Shown here: one piece after another, positions 26,248 to 40,940 of the stretch | Layout of the letters: each line of letters opens with the position of its first letter | Numbering within the stretch: position 1 is the first letter of the stretch | Assembly (NCBI RefSeq): GCF_017876675.1 | Contig: NZ_JAGIOI010000001.1 | Location: 186,001 to 250,000 of the forward strand | Direction of reading: 5' to 3' | Length of the DNA stretch: 64,000 bases | Origin: Arthrobacter stackebrandtii | GTDB lineage: Bacteria > Actinomycetota > Actinomycetes > Actinomycetales > Micrococcaceae | Made by a program: the position numbers and the translations under genes | Notes under the pieces: generated by a model | The model's database searches: none | What the model was told of the DNA's origin: nothing | Seen by the model: only the letters and a program-made list of their open reading frames with translations

Positions 26248-27843
26248 GTGCTGGCAACATTGGTGATTGGCCTTCGCGAAGGCCTGGAAGCCGCACTGAT
26301 AGTGGGCATGATCGCCGCTTTCCTGCGCCGCAACACCATCTCACTCAAGCCCATGTGGCTCGGTGTGGGCGCCGCCGTGCTGGTCAGCGCCCTGGTGGGC
26401 ATCACCTTGGAAATCGTCTCCGCCGCGCTCCCCCAGCAGCAGCAAGAAGCCATGGAAACCGTCATTGGCGCCGCCGCGGTCATCATCGTGACGTTCATGA
26501 TCCTGTGGATGAGCAAAAACTCCCGCAACATGAAATCCACGCTGGAACAGCACGCCGGATCCGCACTCAAGGGCGGTTCGGTCATGGCCCTGGCGGTCAT
26601 GGCATTCCTGGCGGTCTTGCGCGAAGGCGTGGAAACCGCCGTCTTCATGGTGGCCGCCTTCCAGTCTTCACTGAGCCCCCTGGCCGCCGGCACCGGCGCG
26701 GTGCTGGGCCTGGCGGTGGCCTCCGGCATCGGCTTCCTGCTCTTCCGCGGCGCCATCAAGCTCAACCTGGCCAAGTTCTTCCAGGCCACCGGCGTGTTCC
26801 TGATGTTCGTCGCCGCCGGGCTGGTCATGAAATCCCTGCGCACCGCCCACGAGGCCGGCTGGCTCAACGTCGGCCAGGACACCACCATCAGCCTCGCCTG
26901 GCTGGCCCCCAACGGCAGTGCCCGCGCCGCCATTCTCACCGGCGTCTTCGGCATCCCCAACGACCCCCGCGTGGTGGAACTGCTCGGCTGGGCCCTCTAC
27001 CTGGTCCCCATGCTCGCCTTCATCCTGTGGCCGCGCCGCGCCAAGCCCACCCCGGCAGCACTCCCCCGCGTGCAGTTCGCCGCCGCCGGCGCCCTGGCCA
27101 CGGCTGCCGTGGCGCTGGCCATTGCCGCCCCGCTGGCCATTCCTGCCGCAACACTTTCCTCAGGCACGACGCCGGCCCTCACTTCTTCCGGCGAGGCTGC
27201 GGTGACGCTTCGCCTCGCCTCGGATGAGGCCGCGGTGGCTGCCGGTGCAAACGCCGCCGCGGCCACGGGCGGCGGCAAGACACTCATCGTCACCGCGACC
27301 GACGGGCACAGCAACAGCTACGCCCTGACCGGCCATGGCACCGAATCACATGCCGGCCGCACCCTCTCCGCCTATACGGCCGTTGGCGGGGATTCCGCCA
27401 GCTCCAGCACGGCCGAGCCCGCCGAGCTCTCGGTGGCGGCCCTGGTGGAACTCAATGGCGGGCGCATCCCCGTTGGCATCAGCGCCTCCGCCAACCCCGG
27501 CCCCTTCGACGCCAGTTGGAAGCACAAGGGCGCCATCACCGTGTGGCTGGCCGGGGACACTCTGGTTGATGCCGTCAATGACGAGGGCACTGCGCTGACC
27601 CTCAGCGGCGGCGGCCTGGCCAGCCCCCGCACCATTGCCGTGGTGGGTGACGGCGGCTGGTCGGTCCCGGAGGACCATGTAACCGCGGCCGTCACCGAGC
27701 TGAACACCCTGGAATCGGCACGCAGCGAAAACACGTTGTGGTCGTGCATGCTCCCGTCGGTCCTGGCCATCGCCGCCGTGGCGTTTCTGGTGGCTGCCCG
27801 CCGCAACCGGCGCCAGCTGCTGGTCACCGCCCCCTCCCCTTAA
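26248..27843 (+). CDS. efeU: iron uptake transporter permease EfeU (FTR1 family) with long C-terminal extension
   Basis: Inner-membrane ferric iron permease of the EfeUOB system. The two REGxE iron-binding motifs are present: LREGLEAALIVG (residues 9-20) and LREGVETAVFM (about 128-138). Seven helices fill the first 275 residues, the normal EfeU length. The remaining 255 residues are an additional segment: a Ser/Ala/Gly-rich, probably extracytoplasmic domain (about 300-500) and one more helix (about 503-522). This extension is not in E. coli EfeU. Translation starts at a GTG. The gene is first in efeUOB. Confidence 0.93.
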   Translation: MLATLVIGLREGLEAALIVGMIAAFLRRNTISLKPMWLGVGAAVLVSALVGITLEIVSAALPQQQQEAMETVIGAAAVIIVTFMILWMSKNSRNMKSTLEQHAGSALKGGSVMALAVMAFLAVLREGVETAVFMVAAFQSSLSPLAAGTGAVLGLAVASGIGFLLFRGAIKLNLAKFFQATGVFLMFVAAGLVMKSLRTAHEAGWLNVGQDTTISLAWLAPNGSARAAILTGVFGIPNDPRVVELLGWALYLVPMLAFILWPRRAKPTPAALPRVQFAAAGALATAAVALAIAAPLAIPAATLSSGTTPALTSSGEAAVTLRLASDEAAVAAGANAAAATGGGKTLIVTATDGHSNSYALTGHGTESHAGRTLSAYTAVGGDSASSSTAEPAELSVAALVELNGGRIPVGISASANPGPFDASWKHKGAITVWLAGDTLVDAVNDEGTALTLSGGGLASPRTIAVVGDGGWSVPEDHVTAAVTELNTLESARSENTLWSCMLPSVLAIAAVAFLVAARRNRRQLLVTAPSP

Positions 27844-27855
27844 TTTCCTCCTGCC

Positions 27856-27883
27856 CACCGCTGCCCGGCTTCGGGCAGCGGTG
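27856..27883 (+). terminator. hairpin between efeU and efeO
   Basis: A perfect 12-base-pair stem (27856-27867 with 27872-27883) with a four-base loop, followed by CTTTT. It sits 12 bases after the efeU stop and 42 before efeO, so it probably lets part of the transcripts stop and sets a lower level of the downstream genes, or protects the efeU end. Confidence 0.75.
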
Positions 27884-27925
27884 CTTTTGCACCCCTTTTT
27901 ACAACCCACCCCATTAAGGACACCC

Positions 27926-29158
27926 ATGACTTCCTCCCCCACCGCCGCGCGCCCACGCACCATCCCCGCCCTGGCCGCGGGTGCCACGGTGCTTGCCCTG
28001 GCCCTGGCCGGTTGCAGCACCGCCACCCCTTCCGGCACGGCCGGCACCGCCTCGGGCGAGGCAGCACCCGTGAGCAACGGGGCGGCTCAAATCTCCGTCA
28101 GTGTTGAAAAGGTTGACGGCTTGGACCAGTGTGTCCCCGACTTCGCCACCGCCCCCGCCGGCCCTGTCACCTTCACAGTGGCCAACAAGGACGCCTCGGG
28201 CGTCAGCGAGGTGGAGTTGCTCAGCGACAAGCGCATCCTGGGTGAGCGCGAGAACATCATCCCCGGCCTGAAGGCCGTCAGCTTCACCGTGACCCTGCCC
28301 GGCGGCCAGTACCAGCTGTACTGCCCCGGGGCAGGCAACGAAAACACCCCGTTCACCGTGACCGGCAGCGCCGCCTCGGCGCAGGCCAACGGCGTGACCG
28401 GCCTGCTCAAGGAGGGCACCGACGGCTACGCCAAGTACGTCTCCGGACAGGTGGACAGCCTGGTGTTGGCCGTGGCCGCACTCCAAAAGGCCGTTGACTC
28501 GGGCGACGTGGAGGCAAGCCAGAAGGCGTATGCCGAGGCCCGCCCGTTCTTTGAGCGCATCGAGCCCGTGGCCGAAAGCTTCCCCGACCTGGACCCGGCA
28601 CTTGACCTGCGCGTGGCCGACGTCGAGCCCGGTGCGGAGTGGACAGGTTTCCACCCGCTGGAGAAGGACCTCTTTGAGGCCCAGGCCGTCACGGACGGTT
28701 CCAAGGCCCTCGCGGCCGGCATCGTGAGGGACGTCGACACCTTGAAGTCCCTCACGGCCGAGCTGGAAAGCAGTGGCGCTTACAAGCCCGAGGAGCTCGC
28801 CAACGGTGCCAGCGGGCTGCTGGAGGAAGTCCAGTCATCAAAAATAACCGGTGAGGAAGAGGCCTACTCCAAGCTTGACCTGGTGGACTTTGCCGCCAAT
28901 ATCGAAGGGTCCCAGCAGGCGTTTGAATACCTCAAGCCGGCCCTGCAGGAGATCGACCCGGGCCTGACAAAACAGATTTCCACGCAGTTCGAAACGGTCA
29001 CCACAGCACTGCAGGACTACCAGGATCCGGCGGCGCTGGGCGGCTGGAAGCCGTACACCGATGAGCTGAAGGCCTCCGACGGCGCCAAGCTCACCGCCCT
29101 GATCCAGGCCCTCCAGGCTCCGCTGGCCAAGATTTCCGAAAAGGTTGCAACCGTCTAA
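27926..29158 (+). CDS. efeO: iron uptake system lipoprotein EfeO
   Basis: A 410-residue extracytoplasmic iron-binding component. A lipoprotein signal with lipobox LAGC puts the lipidated Cys at residue 30. Next comes an EfeO-type cupredoxin domain (about 55-150, with Cys residues in QCVPDF and LYCPG), then the M75/imelysin-like domain with the metal motif HPLEKD (about 240-245). It hands iron to EfeU. The start is ATG 27926, preceded by AAGGA; a longer frame upstream has no ribosome site. It lies in efeUOB, with efeB following directly. Confidence 0.93.
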   Translation: MTSSPTAARPRTIPALAAGATVLALALAGCSTATPSGTAGTASGEAAPVSNGAAQISVSVEKVDGLDQCVPDFATAPAGPVTFTVANKDASGVSEVELLSDKRILGERENIIPGLKAVSFTVTLPGGQYQLYCPGAGNENTPFTVTGSAASAQANGVTGLLKEGTDGYAKYVSGQVDSLVLAVAALQKAVDSGDVEASQKAYAEARPFFERIEPVAESFPDLDPALDLRVADVEPGAEWTGFHPLEKDLFEAQAVTDGSKALAAGIVRDVDTLKSLTAELESSGAYKPEELANGASGLLEEVQSSKITGEEEAYSKLDLVDFAANIEGSQQAFEYLKPALQEIDPGLTKQISTQFETVTTALQDYQDPAALGGWKPYTDELKASDGAKLTALIQALQAPLAKISEKVATV

Positions 29159-30442
29159 ATGGAGACACCCACAGCACCCGGCCCCGACGTTCCGCGGCGG
29201 TCACTGATCAGCGGTTCTGCCGCAATGGCTGCGGCGGGCGGCCTCGTGCTCGGCGCGGGCGCGGCCACAGCGGCAGCCGCCGCCATGGCACCCAACGGGG
29301 CATCCGGCGTCGTACAGGGCGCCAGGAACGGCGACGAGCGCCATCCCTTCTACGGCGAACACCAGGCGGGCATCAGCACTCCCCCGCAGGACCACCTGGT
29401 GTTCACCGCCTTCGACGTCACGGCGACAACGCCGGTGGAGCTGCAGCTGGTTTTGGCGAAGTGGTCGGCGGCGATGGCGGAGCTGACGAACGGCAGGCCC
29501 GTCGGGAAGGTGCAGCCTGCGCGGGCGAACGGCGTGCCCGGCGACACCGGGGAGGCTGCCGACATGGGGCCGCACGGGCTGACGCTGACACTTGGATTTG
29601 GGCCGTCGCTGTTTGACGGGCGGTTTGGGCTGGAGAAGTTCAAGCCGGCCGGATTTGACCAGCTGCCGGCGATGGCTGGGGAGTCGCTGGATCCGGCGAT
29701 GACGGGCGGGGATTTGTGCATCCAGGCGTGCGCCAACGATCCGCAGGTGGCCTACCATGCTGTCCGGAACTTGGCCCGGATGGCAAGGACATCCGTGAGG
29801 ACGCGCTGGACAGTGCTCGGTTTTGGCCGCGCTTCGGCCGGGGCAAACCAGATAACCCCGCGCAATCTGCTGGGCTTCAAGGACGGCACCCGGAACATCA
29901 AAACAGAGGAGGACTTTGCCGAGCACGTGTGGGTGGGCGATGAGGCCGGGCAGGGGTGGATGGCGGGCGGCAGCTACCTTGTGGCGCGCAAGATCCACAT
30001 GATGATCGAGACGTGGGACGAGGATCCAATCAACGACCAGCAGGGCATTTTCGGCCGGACCAAGCAGGCGGGCGCACCGCTGTCCGGAACCCGCGAGCAC
30101 GACGTCCCCGATTTCCATGCGGCCGCGCCCGGCGGCGGTCCGGTGATTCCGGCGGACTCGCACATCGCGCTGGCAGCCCATGAGAACAACGGCGGGACGA
30201 AGATCCTGCGCCGCGGCTACAACTTCACCGACGGGCTCGACGCCGTGGGCCGCCTCGATGCCGGGTTGATGTTCCTGAGCTTCCAGCGCGATCCGGAACA
30301 ATTCGTGGCACTGCAGCGCAAGTTGGGTTCCTCGGACCGGCTCAACGAATACATCCGGCACGTGGGCTCCGGCGTGTATGCCGTGCCCGGCGGGCTCCCT
30401 GCGGCCGGCAACTACTACGGCAAGGAGTTCTTCCCCGGATAA
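29159..30442 (+). CDS. efeB: deferrochelatase/peroxidase EfeB (Dyp-type peroxidase)
   Basis: A 427-residue heme peroxidase exported folded: a twin-arginine signal (RRSLISGSA, then Ala/Gly-rich helix to about residue 45). Dyp-family landmarks are GFKDGTRNI (about 238-246, distal Asp), the heme His region IPADSHIALAAHENN (about 325-339) and FMSLSFQRDP-like LMFLSFQRDPEQF near 372. It completes the EfeUOB iron system, where it oxidises ferrous iron or draws iron from heme. Its ATG follows the efeO stop without any gap (TAAATG), so it depends on efeO translation. Confidence 0.94.
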   Translation: METPTAPGPDVPRRSLISGSAAMAAAGGLVLGAGAATAAAAAMAPNGASGVVQGARNGDERHPFYGEHQAGISTPPQDHLVFTAFDVTATTPVELQLVLAKWSAAMAELTNGRPVGKVQPARANGVPGDTGEAADMGPHGLTLTLGFGPSLFDGRFGLEKFKPAGFDQLPAMAGESLDPAMTGGDLCIQACANDPQVAYHAVRNLARMARTSVRTRWTVLGFGRASAGANQITPRNLLGFKDGTRNIKTEEDFAEHVWVGDEAGQGWMAGGSYLVARKIHMMIETWDEDPINDQQGIFGRTKQAGAPLSGTREHDVPDFHAAAPGGGPVIPADSHIALAAHENNGGTKILRRGYNFTDGLDAVGRLDAGLMFLSFQRDPEQFVALQRKLGSSDRLNEYIRHVGSGVYAVPGGLPAAGNYYGKEFFPG

Positions 30443-30481: not shown

Positions 30482-31273
30482 TCAGGCCGGCGGGGCGACG
30501 ATGACCTTGGTGCCGGCGTCCTCGAATGCCCGGAGTTGCTCCAGCGTGATGCCGGAATCGGTGATGACGTTGCCCAGGTTGGTCAGGTCCATCGTGGCGA
30601 AGGCGCGGCGGCCGATCTTGGAGGAGTCGGCCAGGATGAACGCCTCGGACGCACGTCGGGCCATCCGGGAGTTGACGGAGGCCTCGCCCTCGTCGTTGAT
30701 GGTGGGGGCGGCGCCGGGCTCGATCCCGTTGACGCCGATGAACGCAAAGTCCAGTGCAACCCGCTGCAGGATGGAATCGGCGTACGGACCCACGAGTTCG
30801 TAGGAGCGCGGGTTCACGATGCCGCCGGTGACCATGATCTTGAAGTTGGGCCGGATGGCCAGCTGTGCGGCAATGTTGATCGCGTTCGTCACCACTGTCA
30901 GGGTGGGCCGGTTGGATGCCTCCATCAGGTCCTCGCGCGTGGCCAGCACCTGGGCCAGGGCCGTGCTGGTGGTGCCCCCGCACAGCCCGATGACCGCGCC
31001 CTTGGGAATCAGTGCACTGGCAGCCAGGGCGATGGCCTGCTTTTCGTGTGCGAAGTCGTCGCGGTTGTACCGGCCCGGAAGGTCGTAGGAGACGGAACCG
31101 CTCGTGGCACCGCCGCGGGTGCGGGTCAGCAGCCGCTCGTTGGCCAGCGAGTCCAGGTCGCGTCGGGCCGTGGCCGGGGAGACACCGAGCTTTTCAACGA
31201 TCTCATCCACTTCCACCTGCCCGTCGGCAGCCAGGATGTCCAGGATGGCGGTGAGGCGTTCGGTTCTGTTCAT
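30482..31273 (-). CDS. DeoR/GlpR family transcriptional regulator
   Basis: A 263-residue repressor. The N-terminal helix-turn-helix is typical (EIVEKLGVSPATARRDLDSL, about 23-42, then TRTRGGA), and the C-terminal effector domain binds a sugar phosphate, with GLCGGTTSTALA (about 94-105) and DSSKIGRRAFA near 215-225. The start at 31273 has AGAAGGA seven bases upstream. It is the last gene of the putative GalNAc operon, 112 bases after the aldolase gene, and most likely controls that operon and the divergent GH101 gene. Likely effector: a tagatose or galactosamine phosphate (inference). Confidence 0.9.
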   Translation of the reverse strand: MNRTERLTAILDILAADGQVEVDEIVEKLGVSPATARRDLDSLANERLLTRTRGGATSGSVSYDLPGRYNRDDFAHEKQAIALAASALIPKGAVIGLCGGTTSTALAQVLATREDLMEASNRPTLTVVTNAINIAAQLAIRPNFKIMVTGGIVNPRSYELVGPYADSILQRVALDFAFIGVNGIEPGAAPTINDEGEASVNSRMARRASEAFILADSSKIGRRAFATMDLTNLGNVITDSGITLEQLRAFEDAGTKVIVAPPA

Positions 31274-31385
31274 AATTCCTTCTCCGGGCGATGGTTCCGT
31301 CTCCGGCCATGGTACGTGGCGGCGGCCGTGTTTCCCCTGCAGGGGCTGCGTGGCGTTCCTGGGCGGGCCGGCCGCCGTCGTGCGG

Positions 31386-32225
31386 TTACTTTGCGGCGGC
31401 AAACAGGGACAGCAGGCGCGCAACCTCGGGAACCAGCGCGTCGCGGCCGGCCCCCAGGTATTTGCGGGAGTCCACGACGGCCGGGTTGGCGTCGAGGTAT
31501 TCGCGCACGGCGCGGGTGAAGAAGCCGTTCAGGTGGGTGGAGACGTTGATCTTGGTCATGCCGGCAGCGATCGCAGCCACGATGTTCTCATCCGAAACGC
31601 CGGAGGAGCCGTGCAGCACCAGGGGCACCTCCAGGGCTGCCTTCAGTTCGGCGATGCGGACCAGGTTCAGCGCGGCGGAGCGCTCGGTCATGGCGTGCGA
31701 GGAGCCCACAGCCACAGCCAGTGCGTCCACGCCGGTCGCGGCGACAAATGAGGCGGCTTCGGCAGGGTCGGTCAGCACGCCCGGTGCGTGGGCGCCGTCC
31801 TTGCCCCCGACCTTGCCCAGCTCTGCCTCAACGTACACGCCGCGCTCATGGGCGTAGGCGGCCACGCGAGCCGTGGATTCCACGTTTTCCGCGTACTCGA
31901 GGTGCGCGCCGTCGTACATGACGGAGCCGAAGCCCAGGTCCACGGCCTCGTACGCGAGGGCCTCGGACTCGGCGTGGTCCAGGTGCACCGCCACCGGGAC
32001 GGAGGCCCTGCGGGCGGCGGCGAGGGTGGCCGCGGCAACGGGCTCGAGCCCGCCGTGGAACTTGGCGCAGTTTTCGGAGATCTGCAGGATGACGGGGCGC
32101 CCGGCAGCCTCGGCACCGCCGATCAGCCCCTCAATGGTCTCGAGGTGGATCACGTTGAACGCGCCCTGCCCCGTGCCGGCCTTCGCGGCCAGGTCCATGA
32201 TGTCGCGCGTGTTTGTCAAAGCCAT
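31386..32225 (-). CDS. class II tagatose/fructose-bisphosphate aldolase
   Basis: A 279-residue zinc aldolase of the GatY/KbaY/FbaA class, cleaving tagatose- or fructose-1,6-bisphosphate to glyceraldehyde-3-phosphate and dihydroxyacetone phosphate. Metal and phosphate motifs: VHLDHAESEALAYEA (about 80-94), YVEAELGKVGG (about 130-140), and LHGSSGVSD followed by KINVSTHL (about 205-235). The start at 32225 is set by AGGA about ten bases upstream and by the conserved N-terminus. Neighbouring sugar kinase and SIS genes favour tagatose-1,6-bisphosphate as the substrate in this operon. Confidence 0.88.
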   Translation of the reverse strand: MALTNTRDIMDLAAKAGTGQGAFNVIHLETIEGLIGGAEAAGRPVILQISENCAKFHGGLEPVAAATLAAARRASVPVAVHLDHAESEALAYEAVDLGFGSVMYDGAHLEYAENVESTARVAAYAHERGVYVEAELGKVGGKDGAHAPGVLTDPAEAASFVAATGVDALAVAVGSSHAMTERSAALNLVRIAELKAALEVPLVLHGSSGVSDENIVAAIAAGMTKINVSTHLNGFFTRAVREYLDANPAVVDSRKYLGAGRDALVPEVARLLSLFAAAK

Positions 32226-32238
32226 GAGATGGAGGTCC

Positions 32239-33201
32239 TTAGTGGTCTGTGATGATGAGTTGTTCGGCAAGCTCGGTGTACCGCGGGGAGATTTCCCCGG
32301 CACCCGGCATAAGCACGGCGGCGGCGCTCCAGGAAGTGGCCCGGCGCAGGATTTCGCGGAGGTCCTCCACGCCGTTGGCAAGTGCGACGGCGGCCGCGCT
32401 CACGGCAGCGTCGCCGGCCCCCGTGGGGTTTCCGCTCAGCGGCGCCGGCAGCTTGGCCTGGATGTAGCGGCCGGGGTTCTCGGCACTGAATGCGAGCATG
32501 CCCTCCTCGCCCACGCTGACCAGGACGCGCCGGGCGCCGAGGTCCATGAGCTTGCGGGCGGCGGCGGCAAGGTTGGTCTCCCCCACGGCTTCCATGAGTT
32601 CGTGGTTGTTGGGCTTGAGCAGGTCTGCCCCCGCCTTCGCGGCTGCCAGGATGCCGGCACCTGAGGTGTCGATGATGGCCGGCACGCCGGCGCCGTGGGC
32701 CAGTGCCACAAGGGCCGGGTAGAAGTCGGCCGGCGCCTGGTCCGGGAGGGAGCCGGAGCCGACGAGCACGCCCGGGCGGCGTACGCCGTCGGGCATCTGG
32801 ACACCGGCGAGGTTGTCCACGACTGCAGCGGCGAGGGCCTGCCACTCTTCCGGCGACAGCGCCTGGCCGGACTCGTTGAAGATGCTGGTGGTGAAGTCCG
32901 CGGCGGTGTCCACGAGCGCGATTGAGCTGCGGGTGTCGGCGGCCACGGGGACCAGCTGGTGCAGCATGCCGGAGGCATCCAGGTCGGTGCGGAAGCGCTC
33001 CCCGGAGAGCCCGCCCACCGTGGCGACGGCCAGTGTGGGGTGGCCCAGCTGGTGCGCCACGCGGGAGACGTTCAGGCCCTTGCCACCGGCGCGGTGGAGC
33101 GGGGTGGGGACGCGGTGCGAGGCGCCCAGGTTGATGCCGGGCACGGTGTAGGTGACGTCGACGGCGGGGTTGGGCGTGACCGTCAGGACCAGGTTGTTCA
33201 T
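32239..33201 (-). CDS. PfkB-family hexose-phosphate kinase (1-phosphofructokinase / tagatose-6-phosphate kinase type)
   Basis: A 320-residue ribokinase-fold kinase. It starts NNLVLTVTPNPAVDVTYTVP, has the substrate glycines GGKGLNVSRVAHQLG (about 38-52) and ends with the ATP/anion-hole motif NPTGAGDAAVSAA (catalytic Asp about residue 255). These are the FruK/LacC/PfkB features. In this operon, phosphorylation of tagatose-6-phosphate to the 1,6-bisphosphate is the expected step. It overlaps the ROK gene by four bases upstream and lies 13 bases before the aldolase gene. Confidence 0.88.
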   Translation of the reverse strand: MNNLVLTVTPNPAVDVTYTVPGINLGASHRVPTPLHRAGGKGLNVSRVAHQLGHPTLAVATVGGLSGERFRTDLDASGMLHQLVPVAADTRSSIALVDTAADFTTSIFNESGQALSPEEWQALAAAVVDNLAGVQMPDGVRRPGVLVGSGSLPDQAPADFYPALVALAHGAGVPAIIDTSGAGILAAAKAGADLLKPNNHELMEAVGETNLAAAARKLMDLGARRVLVSVGEEGMLAFSAENPGRYIQAKLPAPLSGNPTGAGDAAVSAAAVALANGVEDLREILRRATSWSAAAVLMPGAGEISPRYTELAEQLIITDH

Positions 33202-34196
33202 GCGGGCACCTCCAGGGTTCCGGACTCGCGGAGGCTGCGGGCCTTCAAGGCGGAGCCGATCAGCCCGGCGTTCTCCCCCAGTGCGGCGTGGACGTATTCC
33301 GGGCGGCGGTGGAAGGTGAGCAGCTCGTCAACGCGGGCGGCGAGGGGTTCGAAGAGGGTGTCCCCCGCCATGGACAGCCCGCCGCCGAGCACCACGGTCT
33401 CGGTGCCGAGGATGGACACGCACTGCGCCACGCTGAATGCGAGGGCGTTGATGGCGTCGGAGTAGACCGTGGCGGCCGCCTCATCGCCCGTTGCGGCCAG
33501 CTCGAGCACCTGCCGGGCACCGGCCACGGCCGTTCCGGTTGCTTCCGTATAGCGGCGCGCGATGGCACCTGCGGATCCGAGGGATTCCATGATGGCCATG
33601 CCGCCGCCGGGGGCGGGCACCATGGCATGGCCGATCTCCCCCGCATAGCCGCCGCCGACAACACGCCGGCCGTCGCACAGCACGGCACCGGCGATGCCCG
33701 TGCCAATCACCAGGATCAGCACATCCGTCTTGCCCACGGCGGCGCCGAGGCGGAATTCCGCCTCGCCGGCCATGCTGACGTCGTGGCCAAAGCCGACCGG
33801 CACGCCGAGCGCTTCAGTCAGGGTGGCCGTGAACGGGAAGTCCTTCCAGCCGAGGTTGGCCGAGTAGACGCCGATGCCGGCGTCCTCATCCACGATGCCG
33901 GGCACCGTCACGCCCACGGCGGTGATGTGCAGCTCCGGATGCGCGGCCCGGTATTCCCCGGTCAGCTCCACGATCCGCGAACACACGCTCTCGCCGGAGC
34001 GGGCGCCGTCCAGCGGCGTGGGGTGGCGCTGGATGTCCAGCACTTCGACGTTGCCCCCGCCCAGTTGCCCGTGCACCATGCCGACCTTCATGTCGGTGCC
34101 GCCAATGTCGAAGGCCAGCACGACGTCGCTGCCTCCTTGGGCGGATGCATCGGCTGGGGTGCCTGACTGGCCGGGACGGTTGGTCAAAGTGTTCAT
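33198..34196 (-). CDS. ROK family sugar kinase
   Basis: A 332-residue kinase without an N-terminal helix-turn-helix, so an enzyme rather than a ROK repressor. The ATP phosphate-1 motif is AFDIGGTDMKVGMV (about 28-41), phosphate-2 is VIGTGIAGAVL (about 160-170), and the catalytic Asp lies in GFGHDVSMAGEAE (about 137). The usual zinc site CxCGxxGCxE is replaced by PAPGGGMAIME (about 190-200), with no Cys. The context suggests GalNAc or galactosamine as substrate. ATG 34196 is used; the ribosome site (AAAGAA) is weak. The gene overlaps the next kinase gene by four bases. Confidence 0.86.
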   Translation of the reverse strand: MNTLTNRPGQSGTPADASAQGGSDVVLAFDIGGTDMKVGMVHGQLGGGNVEVLDIQRHPTPLDGARSGESVCSRIVELTGEYRAAHPELHITAVGVTVPGIVDEDAGIGVYSANLGWKDFPFTATLTEALGVPVGFGHDVSMAGEAEFRLGAAVGKTDVLILVIGTGIAGAVLCDGRRVVGGGYAGEIGHAMVPAPGGGMAIMESLGSAGAIARRYTEATGTAVAGARQVLELAATGDEAAATVYSDAINALAFSVAQCVSILGTETVVLGGGLSMAGDTLFEPLAARVDELLTFHRRPEYVHAALGENAGLIGSALKARSLRESGTLEVPA

Positions 34197-34260
34197 CAAG
34201 TTCAAGTTCTTTCGCAGAAAAACGCACAGTTCGATGGCGGGAAAATGCCGGGAAAACATG

Positions 34261-34292
34261 AGGCACCCCACTTTGGGCAAAGTGGGGTGCCT
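34261..34292 (-). terminator. hairpin between the SIS gene and the ROK kinase gene
   Basis: A perfect 14-base-pair stem (34261-34274 with 34279-34292) and a four-base loop, followed on the minus strand by CATGTTTT. It probably ends part of the SIS transcripts, so the SIS gene may be expressed above the rest of the operon. Confidence 0.75.
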
Positions 34293-34320
34293 AACATTTT
34301 AGCCGGTATCCCGTGCGTGC

Positions 34321-35226
34321 TTAGTCGTCCAGGATGACCGAGCGCGACAGGTTCCGCGGCAGGTCCGGGTTCATGCCGCGGGCGCGGGCGCGCTCCAGCG
34401 TGACGCGGTGGATGCGGGCCAGCTCAGCGAGCGGGTGGGTGTCAGTGTTGACGTACAGCGCGCCAGTCTTGGCCACGTCGCGGTCCAGGCCCTCGGGCTG
34501 CTCGCCGAACATCCAGGTGACGCGGTTCGGGGCGGCGATGGAGATCGGGCCGTGGCGGTACTCCTTGGCCGGGTACGACTCGGTCCAGCCCTGCACCGCT
34601 TCGCGCATCTTCAGGCCGGCCTCGTGCGCCAGGCCCACGGTCCAGCCGGTGCCCAGGAAGGTGAACTGCTCGGCGTCGATCAGCTCCTGCTCCACCGGCG
34701 CCGTGACGGTGGTCTTGGCGTCCTCGACGGCGGCACTGAGGTCCACGCCGACGCTGGTCAGCAGGTAGCTCAGGGCCGTGGTGGCAAAGCGGGTCTGGAC
34801 CACTGACTGCTCATCCGCGTAGGGAAGTTCGACGACGGAATCGGCCAGGGTCATGATCGGCGAGTTGACGTCGCCCACCAGGGCAACGGTGTGCACGGTG
34901 CCCTTGATGGCGGTCAGGATTTCAAGCACCTCGGTGGTGGTGCCGGAGCGGGTGATGGCGATGACGGCGTCGTAGCCGCGCTCGGCGCCAAGGAAGGCCT
35001 CGGAGGCGGCGAAGGCGTCGGTGACACCCTTGCCCGCTGCCTCACGGGCGGTGGCGTAACTCTGCGCCATGAACCAGGAGGTGCCGCAACCGATTACGGC
35101 GACGCGCTTGCCGTCTTCCGGCAGCAGGTTCTCCGCCTTGGCCTGGGCAATGGCCTTGGCCCAAACCTCGGGCTGGCTGGTGAGTTCGGCATCCATAAAG
35201 GGGCCAAGCTGGGTGTTCTCGCTCAT
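34321..35226 (-). CDS. agaS: SIS-domain sugar-phosphate isomerase/deaminase (AgaS-like)
   Basis: A 301-residue protein with two SIS domains. The first holds VIGCGTSWFMAQSYA (about 44-58) and ITRSGTTTEVLEIL (about 90-103); the second holds FLGTGWTVGLAHEAGLKMRE (about 190-209) and YRHGPIS (about 223-229). This is the layout of GlmS-like isomerase domains and AgaS. In the GalNAc pathway AgaS converts galactosamine-6-phosphate to tagatose-6-phosphate plus ammonia. It is shorter than E. coli AgaS (about 384). It is the first gene of the operon, divergent from the GH101 gene; assignment to AgaS rests on this context. Confidence 0.8.
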   Translation of the reverse strand: MSENTQLGPFMDAELTSQPEVWAKAIAQAKAENLLPEDGKRVAVIGCGTSWFMAQSYATAREAAGKGVTDAFAASEAFLGAERGYDAVIAITRSGTTTEVLEILTAIKGTVHTVALVGDVNSPIMTLADSVVELPYADEQSVVQTRFATTALSYLLTSVGVDLSAAVEDAKTTVTAPVEQELIDAEQFTFLGTGWTVGLAHEAGLKMREAVQGWTESYPAKEYRHGPISIAAPNRVTWMFGEQPEGLDRDVAKTGALYVNTDTHPLAELARIHRVTLERARARGMNPDLPRNLSRSVILDD

Positions 35227-35305
35227 TCTGGCGTTCTCCTAGGGTTCTGCCCCGGTCCGGCGCCGGCCTGCGGCACGCACGGGGACGGTTTCACTGCCAC
35301 CATCC

Positions 35306-35347
35306 TAACACAATCTGATTGTTAACAATGATTAAACGTCATGTTAA
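35306..35347. promoter_or_regulatory. putative DeoR-family operator cluster
   Basis: Holds CAATCTGATTG (35311-35321), the perfect 12-base palindrome ATTGTTAACAAT (35318-35329), and further TAACA/TGTTA half-sites at 35306 and 35343. It lies 80-120 bases before the SIS gene start. Confidence 0.55.
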
Positions 35348-35468
35348 ATCAAAACCTTCCGCACTCCCCTCACTGCAACCGCGGAAATCCGCACCCGCCA
35401 CCCTTTTGGCCCGCCCTGTCCATTCAGCCAGTTGTCGTGCACGTCACATATAGGCAATAATGGGAAAT

Positions 35469-35482
35469 TGTTATGCATAACA
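35469..35482. promoter_or_regulatory. putative operator, perfect palindrome TGTTATGCATAACA
   Basis: A 14-base perfect palindrome 110 bases before the GH101 start, sharing the TGTTA/TAACA half-site with the cluster at 35306-35347. It probably binds the same regulator. Confidence 0.55.
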
Positions 35483-35591
35483 GTGACGCGGGCCCCAGCC
35501 CTGTGGCTGTTGCGCTCCGCACTGGGGCCACCATCACCAGCCGGCAAGCCGCCGGCTGTCCCTGTTACAAAGATGTTCAAGGAGTTCTTTG

Positions 35592-38500
35592 ATGTCTCTC
35601 ACCCGACACCGCCGCACCTGGCTGGGAATGGGGGTGGCCGGCGCAGTCATGGCCGGCACCGTCATCCCCGTCGCCGCGGCCGCGCCCGCCCTGGCGGCAG
35701 ACGGAACGGCGGTGATCACCTCCGGGCAAATGTCCGTGGAGGTTTCCACCGCCTTCCCGCAGGCGCTCAAATACACGCTGGACGGCAAGTCCATGGCCGG
35801 TGCAACCGCCACCGCCACCACGATGCGCATCAACGGCGTGGACCAGGACGTCACCGTCACGTCCAAGGCCAGCGCCGACGGCGCATCCATTGACTACGAC
35901 ATTGCCGTCCCCGGCATGGACGGCGTCAGCCTGAAGGCGCGCCTCGCCGTCGAGAAAAACGTGCTGACGTTCAACATCACCGAAATCAAGGAAACCGGCA
36001 CGGCGCAGGTCAACCGGATCCAGATCATGGACCAGGACCTGGTCACCGTGTCCTCGGCGGATGCCGGTGCCAGCGTAGCCACGGCAGTGGTCTCCACCGA
36101 CCGCGCCAAGACCGGCGACACCATCACGGCCGTCAACGCCGACACCGCCGTGGACGCGGCCGCCAAGACCTCCATGGTGGCCATCGCGAACACGGCTGAG
36201 CTGGCCGCAGGCTTTGAGTCCAACTCCCTGTACGACGGCGCCTGGTCCAGCGAGGACAACTCCCTCGCCGCCAGCGAGCGCGGCCGTTTCTGGCGCCAGG
36301 TCAAGGCCGACGGCGCCAACAAGAAGGTGGGCGTCTCCTCCGGTGCGTGGCTGTACCGCGCCAAGGGATCCACCGAGACCGAGCCCCTCCCCGAGGCCAA
36401 GGTCATCATCACCGGCGATGCCAACGCCGACGGCACGGTCAACTGGCAGGACGGTGCCATCGCCTCCCGCGACATCCAGTACAAGCCCAAGGGCTGGGAG
36501 GATGTGAAGAACCGGGTTGTCCAGAACATCCCGTTCAACTTCGCCAGCCAGGCCACCAACCCGTTCCTGCGCACCCTGGACGACGTCAAGCACATCGCCC
36601 TGGCCACCGACGGGCTGGGCCAGTTCTCCCTGCTGAAGGGCTTCACCTCCGAGGGCCACGACTCCGCCAACACGGACTTCAGCGGCAACTGGAACGAACG
36701 CGCCGGCGGCATCAAGGACATGAACACGCTGCTGGAACAGGCCAAGGAATACGGCGCCACGTTCAGCGTGCACATGAACAACACCGAGGCGTACCCGGAA
36801 TCCAACGCCTTCAGCGACGAGTTCATCAAGCAGCCGCCCGGCAAGGGCTGGAACTGGCTTGAGCAGTCGTACTACATCGACCAGCGCCGCGACGTTCTCT
36901 CCGGAGACCAAAACGCACGCATCAAGGGCCTGGACGATGCCGCAGACGACAACCTGACCACCAACTACATCGACGTCTACTACGAGTCGGGCTGGGTGGG
37001 CGAACGCCTGCAGCGCAACATCATGGACAACGGGTTCTCGGTCTCCTCCGAATTTGCCAACTCCATGGTCCGCAACAACACGTGGTCGCACTGGGCTGTC
37101 GACGAGAAGTACGGCGGAAGCACGCTGAAGGGCTGGAACTCGGAGATTCTCCGCTTCGCCCAGAACACCCAGCGCGACATCTGGAACCCGGACCCGCGCC
37201 TGGGCACCCCGCACCTCGTGGAGTGGCAGGGCTGGACCGGGCAGAACAACTACAACGCGTTCCTGAAGAACGTGTGGGACAACAACGTGCCGGCCAAGTT
37301 CCTGCAGCAGCAGGAAATGACCACGTGGACGCCCGAGGCGATCACGCTCGAGAACAACCTGCGCGTCACGGGCACCTCCCTTGAGGACCGCATCATCACC
37401 CAGGACGGCGTGAAGGTCCTCGAGGGCCACAACTACCTCCTGCCGTGGGCAGGGACCGCCATGGAGTTCGGCGAAACCGCCAACCACGACGTCAACGACC
37501 AGACCAAGCTGTACAACTACAGCCGGGACGGCGGCACCCAAAACTGGAAGCTGACCCCCGAGTTCGCTTCCCAGGCCACGCTGAAGCTGTACGAGCTCAC
37601 AGCCCAGGGCCGCCAGTTCGTCGCCGACGTTCCCGTCACCGACGGCGGCATCACGCTGACCCCGAAGGCCAACACCGCCTACGTGCTGGTGCCCACCGCG
37701 GAGCTCATCACCGTGCCGGCCAACGCCGACACCAACTGGGGCTTCGGCACCGGGATCAAGGACCCCGGCTTCAACTCCGGCAACCTGGCTGCATGGAACC
37801 CCACGGGCGATGTCACCGTGGCCACCTCGGCCAAGGGCCTGGCAAGCGCCAAGTTTGGTGCCGCCGCCTCCAGCATCAGCCAGGAACTGGCCCCGCTGGA
37901 TGCCGGAACATACTCCGTGAGCGCCTGGGTGGAAATCGACCCGACGGCAGACTCAACGGAGAAGTTCCCGCGCGGCAAGCGTGAAACAACGCTCTCCGCC
38001 ACGGTCTCCGGATCCGATCCGGTCACCAACACCACCAACTCCTCGGCCCTGTTCAACACGGTGGCCGCGGACCAGAAGAACCGCACCTTCACCCAGCGCG
38101 TGCGCGTGCTGATCGATGTCAAGAACGACCGCGATGCGCCGACGGTCACGTTCTCGGCTCCTGCCGGGGCAACCGCTGTCCTGGTTGACGACTTCCGCGT
38201 TGTCAAGACCGCGCACGTATCTGCCGCCGATGTCATCGAAGGCGAGCAGTCCGGCGTCGTGCTGGCCGAGGACTTTGAAAACGTGGACCAGGGCTGGGGC
38301 CCGTTTGTGAAGGGCAACGCAGGCGGCATCACCGACCCGCGCACCCACCTGGCGCCCATCCACGCCCCGTACACCCAGAAGGGCTGGAACGGCAAGGTCA
38401 TGGACGACGTGCTGGACGGGAAGTTCTCCCTGCACGCCCACGAGGAAAATGGCGGCCTGGTCTACCGGACCACACCGGCAACCATGAAGTTCACGCCGGG

Positions 38501-40940
38501 TCACGACTACGAGATCTCGTTCAACTACCAGTCGACCAAGGCGAACGAATACGCCTGGGTTGGTGGCTACGACGGCAACGCCGGCGCGGTCCAGACCCAG
38601 TCCACCCCGTTCCCGGAGATGCACGAAACCACGCGCTGGAAGCAGAACTTCACGGCATCCGCCTGCGGCGACAGCTATGTCGGCCTGCTGCGCACCGGAT
38701 CCGCTGCCGCAGATTTGTCCCTGGACAACCTGCTGATCCGCGACCTGGGCGTTTCCACCAGCACCCCGGCCTGTGCACAGCTCTCGCTGGGCCAGACCGG
38801 GCCGATCATCGAGCAGGGCGTGGACAACGAGTTCACCTCCACGCTGGTTTCCAACGAGCCTGCCGGTGTCAAGGACGTGGCTGTTTCGCTGGTCCTGCCC
38901 GAGGGCTGGACGGCGACGGCGAAGACCGCCGCCACGGCCGCAACACTGGCCCCGGGCGCCAAGCTCGTGACCAAGTGGGCCGTGCATGCGCCTGCCTCCG
39001 CCGACGGCAGCTACAACGTCACGGCAAAGTCCGTCTACACCACCACGGTGGACCCGATCGGCGAGCGCAAGGCTGAGTCCACTGTGGGCGTCTACACCAT
39101 GCCCCACCCGCCCACCGAGGACACCTATGCCTCTGCCATGCAGTGGATCGGCACTCCCGCCAACGGCTGGGGCCCGGTTGAAAAGGACCTGGCCAACGGC
39201 GAACAGGGTGCCAAGGACGGCAACGAACTCACCCTGGACGGCAAGGTCTACAAGAAGGGCCTGGGCGTACACGCAGTTTCCAACATCAAGTACTTTGTTG
39301 GCGGCCAGTGCACCGCGTTCAACGCCGTCATTGGCGTTGACGACTACCAGGCCAACAAGGGCACCGTGGTGTTCTCAGTGGTGGGCGACGGCGTGGAGCT
39401 GTACAACTCCGGACTCGTGACCGGCGCTGATGCAGCCAAGGTCATCAGCGTCCCGCTGAACGGCGCCAAGTACATCGAGCTCAAGGTGGGCGACGGCGGC
39501 AACGGCAACGGCAATGACTGGGCCGACTGGGCCGACGCCAAGTTCATGTGCTCCGACGAAGCCCCCGCACTCGTGCTGGCCCCCTCGGTCACACCGGGCG
39601 GCCCGCTGGAGCGCGGCGGCGAATTCACCGTGTCTGTTGGCGAGCTCAAGGCCGGCACGGAAGCCACCTTCACCCTTGGCACCGCCGAGCTGGGCAAGGC
39701 CACGGCCTCCGCCGACGGCGTTGCCACCTTGACCGGAACCCTCGCCGCCGACGCCGCCCTGGGCGCCGCAACCATCACGGTTGCGGGCACCGACGTCAAC
39801 GGCAAGGCCGCCACCGGAACTGTCGCCGTCACCATTGTCGGCACTCCCCCGGCGGCTCCTGATGCCGACGTCTTCGCCAGCGACCTGGAGTTCGCGGGTA
39901 CCCCCGTCAACGAATGGGGCCCCGTGGAGCGCGACATGAACAACGGTGAAAACGCACAGGGCGACGGTGCACCCATCACGATCGACGGCAAGGTGTACGA
40001 GAAGGGCCTCGGCGTCCATGCCGATTCCTCCGTCACGTTCTACCTCGGCGGAGCGTGCACCACGTTCACGGCCGTCGCCGGCATCGACGACGCCAAGCTG
40101 CCCAAGGCACACCGCGGCAACGTGGTGTTCACCGTGGACGGCGACGGCAAGAACCTCGCCACCTCGCCGCAGCTGACCGTTGACGATGCAGGCTACGCCT
40201 TCAACGTCGACGTCACGGGCGTGCGCTACCTCAGCCTGGATGTTGCCAAGGTCCTGGTCGACGGCAAGAACGGCGATGAGTGGGCCGACTGGGCCGACGC
40301 CAAGTTCAGCTGCGGCGACAAGACCCCGGCACTGGTGCTGGCCCCCGTGGTTGAGGGCGGCAACGCACTCGAGCAGGGTTCCACCCACACCGTGACCGTT
40401 GCGGAACTGCAGGCGGATTCCGCCGCAACCCTGCAGCTGGGCGACGGCGTTGAACTCACCGCCGTGGCCAACGCCGAGGGGGTGGCCGCGTTCACGCTGG
40501 CCATCGCCGAGGACGCCGCCGTGGGCGAGGCCGTCCTGACGGCCACGGGCACGGACAAGAACGGCAAGGCAGCCACCGGCACCACCACTGTGACCGTCAC
40601 GGCCAAGCCGGTTGAGCCCGGCGAGCCCGGCTTCACCCCCGAGGCCCCGGACACCAAGGTGCTGAAGAAGGACACCGAAACGGACCTGGGCCTGGGCAAG
40701 GCGAAGTTCCCGCGCGGTTCCTCCGAGGTGGCACTGGCCAATCTCGAGGCCGGCCAGTGGTTCTATGTCTACCTCAACGGTGACGGCCTCGGCTGGCACC
40801 AGGCACAGGCGGACGGCACCATCACGGTCATCACCCCGGATGGCACCCGCCCCGGCAACAACAAGGTCGCCGTCATCAACGAGGACGGCACCCTGCACGG
40901 CTGGACCGCACTGAAGGTCACCGGACCCCCGGTACCGTAG
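35592..40940 (+). CDS. secreted endo-alpha-N-acetylgalactosaminidase (GH101 family)
   Basis: A 1782-residue secreted enzyme expected to release Gal-beta-1,3-GalNAc from Ser/Thr of mucin-type glycoproteins. A signal peptide (cleavage after ALA near residue 35) is followed by a beta-sandwich and the catalytic barrel (about 295-610). Likely catalytic residues are Asp461 (IDVYYESGW) as nucleophile and Glu487 (SSEFANSMV) as acid/base, by analogy with the family. Sugar-binding modules follow, including two NPCBM-type domains (about 1173-1320 and 1423-1577, each with KGLGVHA and DWADWADAKF), each followed by an Ig-like repeat. There is no LPXTG anchor, so it is probably released. ATG 35592 is used (AAGGAG eight bases upstream). 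Confidence 0.93.
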   Translation: MSLTRHRRTWLGMGVAGAVMAGTVIPVAAAAPALAADGTAVITSGQMSVEVSTAFPQALKYTLDGKSMAGATATATTMRINGVDQDVTVTSKASADGASIDYDIAVPGMDGVSLKARLAVEKNVLTFNITEIKETGTAQVNRIQIMDQDLVTVSSADAGASVATAVVSTDRAKTGDTITAVNADTAVDAAAKTSMVAIANTAELAAGFESNSLYDGAWSSEDNSLAASERGRFWRQVKADGANKKVGVSSGAWLYRAKGSTETEPLPEAKVIITGDANADGTVNWQDGAIASRDIQYKPKGWEDVKNRVVQNIPFNFASQATNPFLRTLDDVKHIALATDGLGQFSLLKGFTSEGHDSANTDFSGNWNERAGGIKDMNTLLEQAKEYGATFSVHMNNTEAYPESNAFSDEFIKQPPGKGWNWLEQSYYIDQRRDVLSGDQNARIKGLDDAADDNLTTNYIDVYYESGWVGERLQRNIMDNGFSVSSEFANSMVRNNTWSHWAVDEKYGGSTLKGWNSEILRFAQNTQRDIWNPDPRLGTPHLVEWQGWTGQNNYNAFLKNVWDNNVPAKFLQQQEMTTWTPEAITLENNLRVTGTSLEDRIITQDGVKVLEGHNYLLPWAGTAMEFGETANHDVNDQTKLYNYSRDGGTQNWKLTPEFASQATLKLYELTAQGRQFVADVPVTDGGITLTPKANTAYVLVPTAELITVPANADTNWGFGTGIKDPGFNSGNLAAWNPTGDVTVATSAKGLASAKFGAAASSISQELAPLDAGTYSVSAWVEIDPTADSTEKFPRGKRETTLSATVSGSDPVTNTTNSSALFNTVAADQKNRTFTQRVRVLIDVKNDRDAPTVTFSAPAGATAVLVDDFRVVKTAHVSAADVIEGEQSGVVLAEDFENVDQGWGPFVKGNAGGITDPRTHLAPIHAPYTQKGWNGKVMDDVLDGKFSLHAHEENGGLVYRTTPATMKFTPGHDYEISFNYQSTKANEYAWVGGYDGNAGAVQTQSTPFPEMHETTRWKQNFTASACGDSYVGLLRTGSAAADLSLDNLLIRDLGVSTSTPACAQLSLGQTGPIIEQGVDNEFTSTLVSNEPAGVKDVAVSLVLPEGWTATAKTAATAATLAPGAKLVTKWAVHAPASADGSYNVTAKSVYTTTVDPIGERKAESTVGVYTMPHPPTEDTYASAMQWIGTPANGWGPVEKDLANGEQGAKDGNELTLDGKVYKKGLGVHAVSNIKYFVGGQCTAFNAVIGVDDYQANKGTVVFSVVGDGVELYNSGLVTGADAAKVISVPLNGAKYIELKVGDGGNGNGNDWADWADAKFMCSDEAPALVLAPSVTPGGPLERGGEFTVSVGELKAGTEATFTLGTAELGKATASADGVATLTGTLAADAALGAATITVAGTDVNGKAATGTVAVTIVGTPPAAPDADVFASDLEFAGTPVNEWGPVERDMNNGENAQGDGAPITIDGKVYEKGLGVHADSSVTFYLGGACTTFTAVAGIDDAKLPKAHRGNVVFTVDGDGKNLATSPQLTVDDAGYAFNVDVTGVRYLSLDVAKVLVDGKNGDEWADWADAKFSCGDKTPALVLAPVVEGGNALEQGSTHTVTVAELQADSAATLQLGDGVELTAVANAEGVAAFTLAIAEDAAVGEAVLTATGTDKNGKAATGTTTVTVTAKPVEPGEPGFTPEAPDTKVLKKDTETDLGLGKAKFPRGSSEVALANLEAGQWFYVYLNGDGLGWHQAQADGTITVITPDGTRPGNNKVAVINEDGTLHGWTALKVTGPPVP

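Follow-up and report, generated by a model that had tools for sequence, protein, structure and literature searches.

A GH101 locus of Arthrobacter stackebrandtii as a probable part of a scattered, palindrome-marked regulon for mucin-type O-glycoprotein use

Work on the use of mucin-type O-glycans has centred on bacteria of the gut and other mucosal sites, and Arthrobacter is known mainly from soil. Here, we analysed 64,000 nucleotides of Arthrobacter stackebrandtii (positions 186,001 to 250,000 of contig NZ_JAGIOI010000001.1; hereafter the window), in which a large gene for a GH101 endo-alpha-N-acetylgalactosaminidase stands divergently to genes for a SIS-domain protein, a ROK sugar kinase, a PfkB-family kinase, a class II aldolase and a DeoR-family regulator (the SIS set). 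By published accounts, GH35 goes together with a galactosamine 6-phosphate (GalN-6-P) deaminase/isomerase in the Lactobacillus casei gnb operon and in the streptococcal bgaC/aga operon (PMC6109692, PMC5018945, PMC4694137), and bifidobacteria combine an extracellular GH101 with disaccharide uptake by an ATP-binding cassette (ABC) transporter (PMC6109692). By these descriptions, the Arthrobacter system resembles the two operons in joining a GH35 beta-galactosidase to a GalN-6-P deaminase/isomerase (here proposed); it differs in having ABC import candidates, a ROK kinase and a non-AgaS SIS protein where the operons have phosphotransferase system (PTS) uptake and AgaS/GnbE, and in a LacI-type palindrome regulon that takes in GH101. 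With the bifidobacterial GH101/galactosyl-HexNAc phosphorylase route it would share the extracellular GH101 and ABC uptake, both predicted here, whereas a GH35 hydrolase would stand in place of the GH112 phosphorylase; the GH112 model PF09508 matched none of 23 genomes of the genus and was equally silent on the control genomes. The enterobacterial aga pathway (AgaA, AgaS, AgaZ, AgaY, AgaR) is alike in the proposed order of steps, the DeoR regulator and the class II aldolase, and unlike in that the SIS protein is not AgaS, the operon holds no deacetylase and a sugar kinase takes the place of the PTS. The open full-text literature gave no account of an Arthrobacter GH101 or O-glycan system in titles or abstract openings, subscription papers lying outside this scope.

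We propose, with a probability of about 0.72, that the locus is part of a scattered regulon for the use of mucin-type O-glycoproteins, in which a core-1 regulon would feed a route for N-acetylgalactosamine (GalNAc). Each catalytic and regulatory step of this mechanism we infer from gene content, gene order and operator-like words. A LacI-family protein would repress the palindrome-bearing genes and release them when core-1 sugar is present. GH101 would free Gal-beta-1,3-GalNAc outside the cell, the sugar would enter through an ABC importer (of NgcEFG type in Arthrobacter, dedicated in Isoptericola), and GH35 would cleave the disaccharide intracellularly. The ROK kinase would then form GalNAc 6-phosphate, a NagA-type deacetylase encoded elsewhere would form GalN-6-P, the SIS protein would deaminate and isomerise GalN-6-P to tagatose 6-phosphate, and PfkB and the class II aldolase would complete the route, with DeoR separately controlling the SIS half.

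A rare palindrome at GH101, GH35 and importer genes

The pattern TGTTATNNATAACA occurs three times in the 4.43-Mb genome of the window strain (reversed control, 0): ahead of GH101 (C1:221469), in the spacer between a LacI gene and a GH35 gene (C1:2651302), and within a SIS_2 gene ahead of NgcEFG (C1:1717154). Across our genus panel of 23 genomes there are 67 sites (reversed-pattern control, 0), all of which could be placed, and 62 of them fall into these same contexts. Twenty stand ahead of GH101 genes, of which the panel has 21, the last lying behind another GH101 in tandem. A further 21 precede GH35; 20 of these sit between LacI and GH35, and in G004 the LacI gene is 3.6 kb off. Another 21 lie within SIS_2. 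G019 and G020 have no exact GH35 site and carry the one-mismatch version TGTTATGCATATCA there. Three of the five sites elsewhere stand ahead of genes for a secreted Peptidase_M66 protein with StcE as its nearest solved chain (G017, the likely start lying about 0.25 kb beyond the site), a GH95 protein (G010, about 0.24 kb ahead of its first domain), and a secreted protein that combines F5/8C with ricin-type lectin domains (G012).

The LacI protein has helix-turn-helix (PF00356, 66.2 bits) and sugar-binding (PF13377, 128.5 bits) domains and an orthologue of at least 68% identity in each of the 23 genomes, and it may be the repressor that answers to the core-1 sugar. GH35 of the window genome matches PF01301 at 361.4 bits, its nearest solved chains being 4mad (488.1 bits) and 4e8c (409.4 bits), which we take to be BgaC enzymes; by eye it shows no signal peptide, and it is a candidate beta-1,3-galactosidase of the BgaC/GnbG type. 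The importer operon that follows SIS_2 opens with NgcE, identified by the curated model TIGR03851 (603.2 bits; cut-off 399.65). Near LacI/GH35, all 23 genomes also carry a BadF-type kinase gene (L105, 5703-6611), a relative of the NagK model below cut-off and a candidate for a second amino-sugar kinase.

The divergent locus and its enzymes

The genes of the locus are listed below in window coordinates; the ROK, aldolase and DeoR starts are internal ATG codons that we chose within longer open reading frames (ORFs).

35592-40940, plus strand: GH101 endo-alpha-N-acetylgalactosaminidase gene (PF12905, NPCBM models)
34321-35226, minus strand: SIS-domain gene (PF01380, 43.7 bits)
33198-34196, minus strand: ROK sugar kinase gene (PF00480, 126.5 bits)
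32239-33201, minus strand: PfkB-family kinase gene (TIGR03168, above cut-off)
31386-32225, minus strand: class II ketose-bisphosphate aldolase gene (PF01116, 282.6 bits; TIGR00167, above cut-off)
30482-31273, minus strand: DeoR-family regulator gene (PF08220, PF00455)

An original prediction, made from the window alone, had described a GH101 enzyme with two NPCBM modules, divergent from this set, and both ORF coordinates and domain models bear this arrangement out. It had also seen four-base overlaps between genes, of which one holds, between the PfkB start and the ROK stop (33198-33201); the other junctions are all gapped, by 13 bases between PfkB and the aldolase, about 112 between the aldolase and DeoR, and about 124 between SIS and ROK (from ORF coordinates). 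A hairpin and T run, spotted by eye, lie 3' of the GH101 gene.

GH101 scores 374.8 bits against the catalytic model PF12905 (cut-off 25) and 284.8 bits over two stretches against the NPCBM model. Behind an N-terminus that looks, by eye, like a signal peptide, it is built of mutarotase-like, catalytic, beta-sandwich, GalBD-like, NPCBM-associated and two NPCBM domains. The protein aligns, at 457.6 bits, with chain 6qfo of bifidobacterial EngBF, whose catalytic pair we take to be D789/E822 and whose galactose-site tryptophans we take to be W748/W750. Residues D462, E488, W421 and W423 align to these positions with the expected spacing (counted by hand), and all four are invariant in the eight aligned sequences, which cover three kinds of GH101. 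The comparison of catalytic domains that had been put forward as a test thus places the large protein in GH101, catalytic Asp/Glu positions included, and the enzyme would be expected to release the core-1 disaccharide Gal-beta-1,3-GalNAc from O-glycoproteins. The GH101 proteins of the window strain (40700-40940) and of G015 (L032) end without the LPxTG-like, membrane and Arg-rich tail that is present in L029, L030, L031 and L034; because this tail is absent, the enzyme of the window strain is probably released rather than wall-bound.

The spacer between the two halves holds the following elements.

35469-35482, no strand: 14-bp palindrome TGTTATGCATAACA, proposed from its position as the LacI-family operator of GH101
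35432-35461, plus strand: putative GH101 promoter TTGTCG-18-AATAAT, by consensus match alone
35329-35351, no strand: imperfect palindrome TGATTAAACGTCATGTTAAATCA, a putative DeoR operator that is only weakly defined when the genus is compared
35318-35347, minus strand: promoter-like site for SIS, overlain by TGATTAAACGTCATGTTAAATCA

Allowing up to one mismatch, TGTTATGCATAACA is expected 0.01 times in the window, and it begins 8 bases past the last base of the candidate GH101 promoter. The palindrome occurs in the spacers of 15 of 16 genomes with GH101 and in none of seven spacers without it; in the sixteenth, G004 (L027), it stands ahead of GH101 itself, about 5 kb from SIS, with other ORFs between. 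On the SIS side, the word AACGTCA or AACATCA is found in 17 of 23 spacers, whether or not GH101 is present, and DeoR-like 8-base arms with at least six matches in six (L079, L032, L038, L027, L077, L078); a CAATCA, AAATCA, TAATCA or TGATCA word lies within a 450-base stretch in 23/23 genomes, which proves little. The idea of palindromes shared across the spacer was therefore rejected: the GH101-side palindrome is missing from all seven GH101-less spacers, the SIS-side word is also found where GH101 is lacking, and the window itself has a DeoR-like element on one side and TGTTATGCATAACA on the other. Of the claim that the two halves are one system, the neighbourhood link stands, but not common control by shared palindromes, and DeoR may control the SIS half separately.

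The original prediction had set the SIS protein beside the AgaS route of other bacteria; an identity as AgaS we rejected given 18.4 bits against TIGR02815 (cut-off 529.2). None of the 23 genus genomes has an AgaS above this cut-off; G006 encodes, besides its SIS set, a near-AgaS protein of 495 bits (C1:2940171-2941256, L272). The best NCBIfam model for the SIS protein is GlmD (80.7 bits, below the cut-off of 580), and a structure predicted from six sequences was too poor for use (mean predicted local distance difference test score 43.2). We propose that it is a GalN-6-P deaminase/isomerase outside the AgaS family. A role as the only glucosamine 6-phosphate deaminase was rejected, nagB being above cut-off in 23/23 genomes; given this, and that the set has its own kinase and aldolase, we argue for a separate galacto rather than a gluco branch. 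The ROK kinase, for which no NCBIfam model rose above cut-off, is proposed as GalNAc kinase. PfkB, above cut-off for the subfamily-level hexose kinase model TIGR03168, has a tagatose 6-phosphate kinase as its nearest solved chain (2awd, 110.4 bits), the activity that we propose for it, and the class II aldolase is proposed to act on tagatose 1,6-bisphosphate. For the DeoR regulator, GlpR_Halo (147 bits) and AgaR (139.1 bits) both remain below cut-off.

A deacetylase, an importer and an enzyme for the disaccharide had been described as missing, with a search of the rest of the genome suggested for nagA/agaA and transport genes. These parts do lie outside the window, but the same genome holds candidates for all three: the GH35 and NgcEFG genes described above and a NagA-like gene below cut-off. 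In PMC5583593, agaA clustered with agaS serves as the criterion for a GalNAc pathway; the window genome was found to have no agaS, and its NagA-like gene is unclustered.

One slot beside a stable SIS set

The SIS gene is present in 23/23 panel genomes and GH101 in 16. The two adjoin in 15, which is more than chance; they are about 5 kb apart, with intervening ORFs, in G004, and seven genomes are without GH101. A HutI gene lies beyond GH101 in 13 of the 16 (in G018 there was no match within about 5.5 kb, and contigs end in G016 and G021) and directly after the SIS spacer in six of the seven GH101-less genomes, none being seen in the shorter stretch of G013. Two kinds of GH101, with 60-93% and about 41% identity to that of the window, occupy the same slot, and G017 carries both in tandem. 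These two kinds, together with the absences, point to gain, replacement or loss of GH101 in one slot beside a stable SIS set. Further GH101 genes (35-39% identity), with the same palindrome ahead, are found elsewhere in four genomes (L033, L034, L035, L037), and in L034 (1202-18589), the one of these scanned for neighbours, this GH101 lies near GH42, a LacI-type match (31%) and a GH20 with F5/8C domains. G012 has a diverged second set on a 152-kb contig (C2; L080, 7418-16736), with SIS at 42%, PfkB at 39%, aldolase at 51% and DeoR at 31% identity, and ABC-importer-like genes.

An alignment scan for GH101 gave 219 relatives, of which the best 80 loci were taken, many of them cut by contig ends. 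Eight show the SIS set, seven of these being public records of panel genomes. The eighth, from Isoptericola cucumis, is a run of LacI, ABC genes, GH35, GH101, SIS, ROK, PfkB and aldolase with no DeoR match. LacI, ABC genes, GH35 and GH101 stand together in three Oerskovia records, and in Haematomicrobium GH101 is followed by LacI. A one-mismatch operator, TGTTATGGATATCA, lies in the spacer between LacI and the substrate-binding protein gene of Isoptericola, and another, TGTTATGCATATCA, ahead of the Haematomicrobium GH101; in Oerskovia (L164) only two-mismatch palindrome words were seen. No SIS gene was seen in the remaining 68 of the best 80 loci, mostly from Streptomyces and Nonomuraea and often truncated at a contig end; of these, L178 ends in a partial GH35 match and has ABC permeases, L220 gives two LacI matches at about 50%, and L185 and L203 each give a distant ROK match. 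One record named Sporosarcina beigongshangi (L157, NZ_JADHDY010000005.1) has locus genes of 85-98% identity and behaves as a member of the genus; its species name looks wrong.

At E 1e-50, 103 of 396 genomes of the order, the window genome among them, encode the SIS protein, with 43 of 109 genera represented. All 20 contexts taken from other genera keep SIS, ROK and aldolase together, and 16 of them have the five genes of the set. Three (L277, L278, L292) carry a NagA-like gene no more than 5 kb from the set, ABC importer genes hold the position of the Arthrobacter GH101 in L277, L279 and L281, L292 has an NgcEFG set (57-65% identity), and L278 a GH20 gene. L276, from G251 of another genus of the same family, has GH101 beside SIS. 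GH101 seems to have been added to the SIS set, which itself has the look of a general sugar module.

Beside DeoR, the window (26248-30442) holds genes for FTR1, a protein that we take to be EfeO-like and a DyP-type peroxidase, which look like an Efe-type iron uptake set; they are conserved by the locus in several relatives. A DnaB-like ORF of 879 codons in the same genome (L104, 12845-15484) has an apparent insert, as in L115, and its match in several relatives is split into two adjacent pieces of about 230 codons each; the insert is perhaps an intein.

Weighing the readings

Several observations weigh against a common regulon and GalNAc route. Isoptericola is the sole independent GH101 locus with the SIS set among the best 80, and no match in the genus at E 1e-40 exceeds 38% identity to its substrate-binding protein. 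Within the stretches compared, 19 of 20 outside contexts have the SIS set without GH101, as do seven of the 23 panel genomes, and the GH101 of L276 is without the palindrome. TGTTATNNATAACA was not found at the SIS promoter, so that the palindrome does not speak for co-regulation of the halves; LacI binding to it is read from position alone; the SIS_2 site falls within a coding sequence, about 390 bp upstream of NgcE, and is of uncertain effect; and at two of the five other sites (L112, L118) the adjoining genes show no obvious link. As for the enzymes, no equivalog model matched the SIS set in a way that fixes a substrate, the nearest solved chains of ROK are glucokinases, the solved relatives of the aldolase are of both fructose and tagatose type with the fructose type nearest, and the NagA-like gene (C1:3114528) reaches 207.2 bits against a cut-off of 225.65 and is distant from the locus. 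Our confidence in the main reading is slightly lower for two reasons: all but one of the eight GH101 loci that show the SIS set are panel genomes, and the solved relatives of the aldolase and ROK give the galacto route no preference.

GH101 and the SIS set might be neighbours without a common task, the set serving another amino sugar or ketose (gluco-type, an Amadori product, a sulfosugar or tagatose) and GH101 belonging to the LacI regulon. The wider presence of SIS than of GH101 in the genus, the different elements at their promoters and the rarity of the set at GH101 loci, with one case outside the genus among the best 80, would all fit. However, two GH101 kinds came to occupy the same slot by SIS, another genus of the family (L276) also has GH101 there, Isoptericola has GH35, GH101 and the SIS set in a single run, and nagB is present anyway, so that we hold this to be unlikely. 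It is quite improbable, in our judgement, that another regulator binds the palindrome, for example the RpiR-type protein encoded beside SIS_2 in 23/23 genomes, with LacI controlling itself alone, even though the LacI promoter seems, by eye, to hold a second conserved element. The palindrome lies in the LacI-GH35 spacer of 20 genomes, and its one-mismatch versions accompany a 58% LacI relative in Isoptericola and, ahead of GH101, a 54% LacI relative in Haematomicrobium, while the stretches compared from these two have no RpiR match.

More open to doubt is the place of the importer, and we regard it as a real, if lesser, possibility that the SIS_2 site is a coding coincidence and NgcEFG stands outside the regulon. 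The site falls within a gene, at a place where a conserved peptide is encoded; it is exact in 21 of 23 SIS_2 genes, G016 having lost both palindrome and peptide; and it is kept in G019 and G020, both without GH101. Yet the palindrome is not forced by the protein, because G008 keeps the peptide DIVIDN without it, and the site codons ATT, GTT and GAT are each unchanged in 22/23 genomes. With all 23 genomes counted, 23 of 172 conserved-residue positions (residue shared by at least 21 genomes, Met and Trp excluded) keep one codon in at least 21, and five of these fall in the six-codon block, a block noticed through the pattern itself, so that the count is no independent test.

Taken together with the spread of the SIS set, the regulon reading can be extended, at what we would call even odds: the SIS protein would found a separate, non-AgaS family of GalN-6-P deaminases/isomerases, present in about a quarter of the sampled genomes of the order, which Arthrobacter wired to a LacI-controlled O-glycan regulon (GH101, GH35 and importer; an StcE-like peptidase and a GH95 fucosidase would belong to it in one species each), with one operator hidden in a coding gene. 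The O-glycoprotein regulon proposed here is compact and testable, and a single rare 14-bp palindrome marks it. It offers candidates for a GalNAc kinase, for a GalN-6-P deaminase outside AgaS, and for new enzymes of GH101, GH95 and M66 that could serve glycoprotein analysis.

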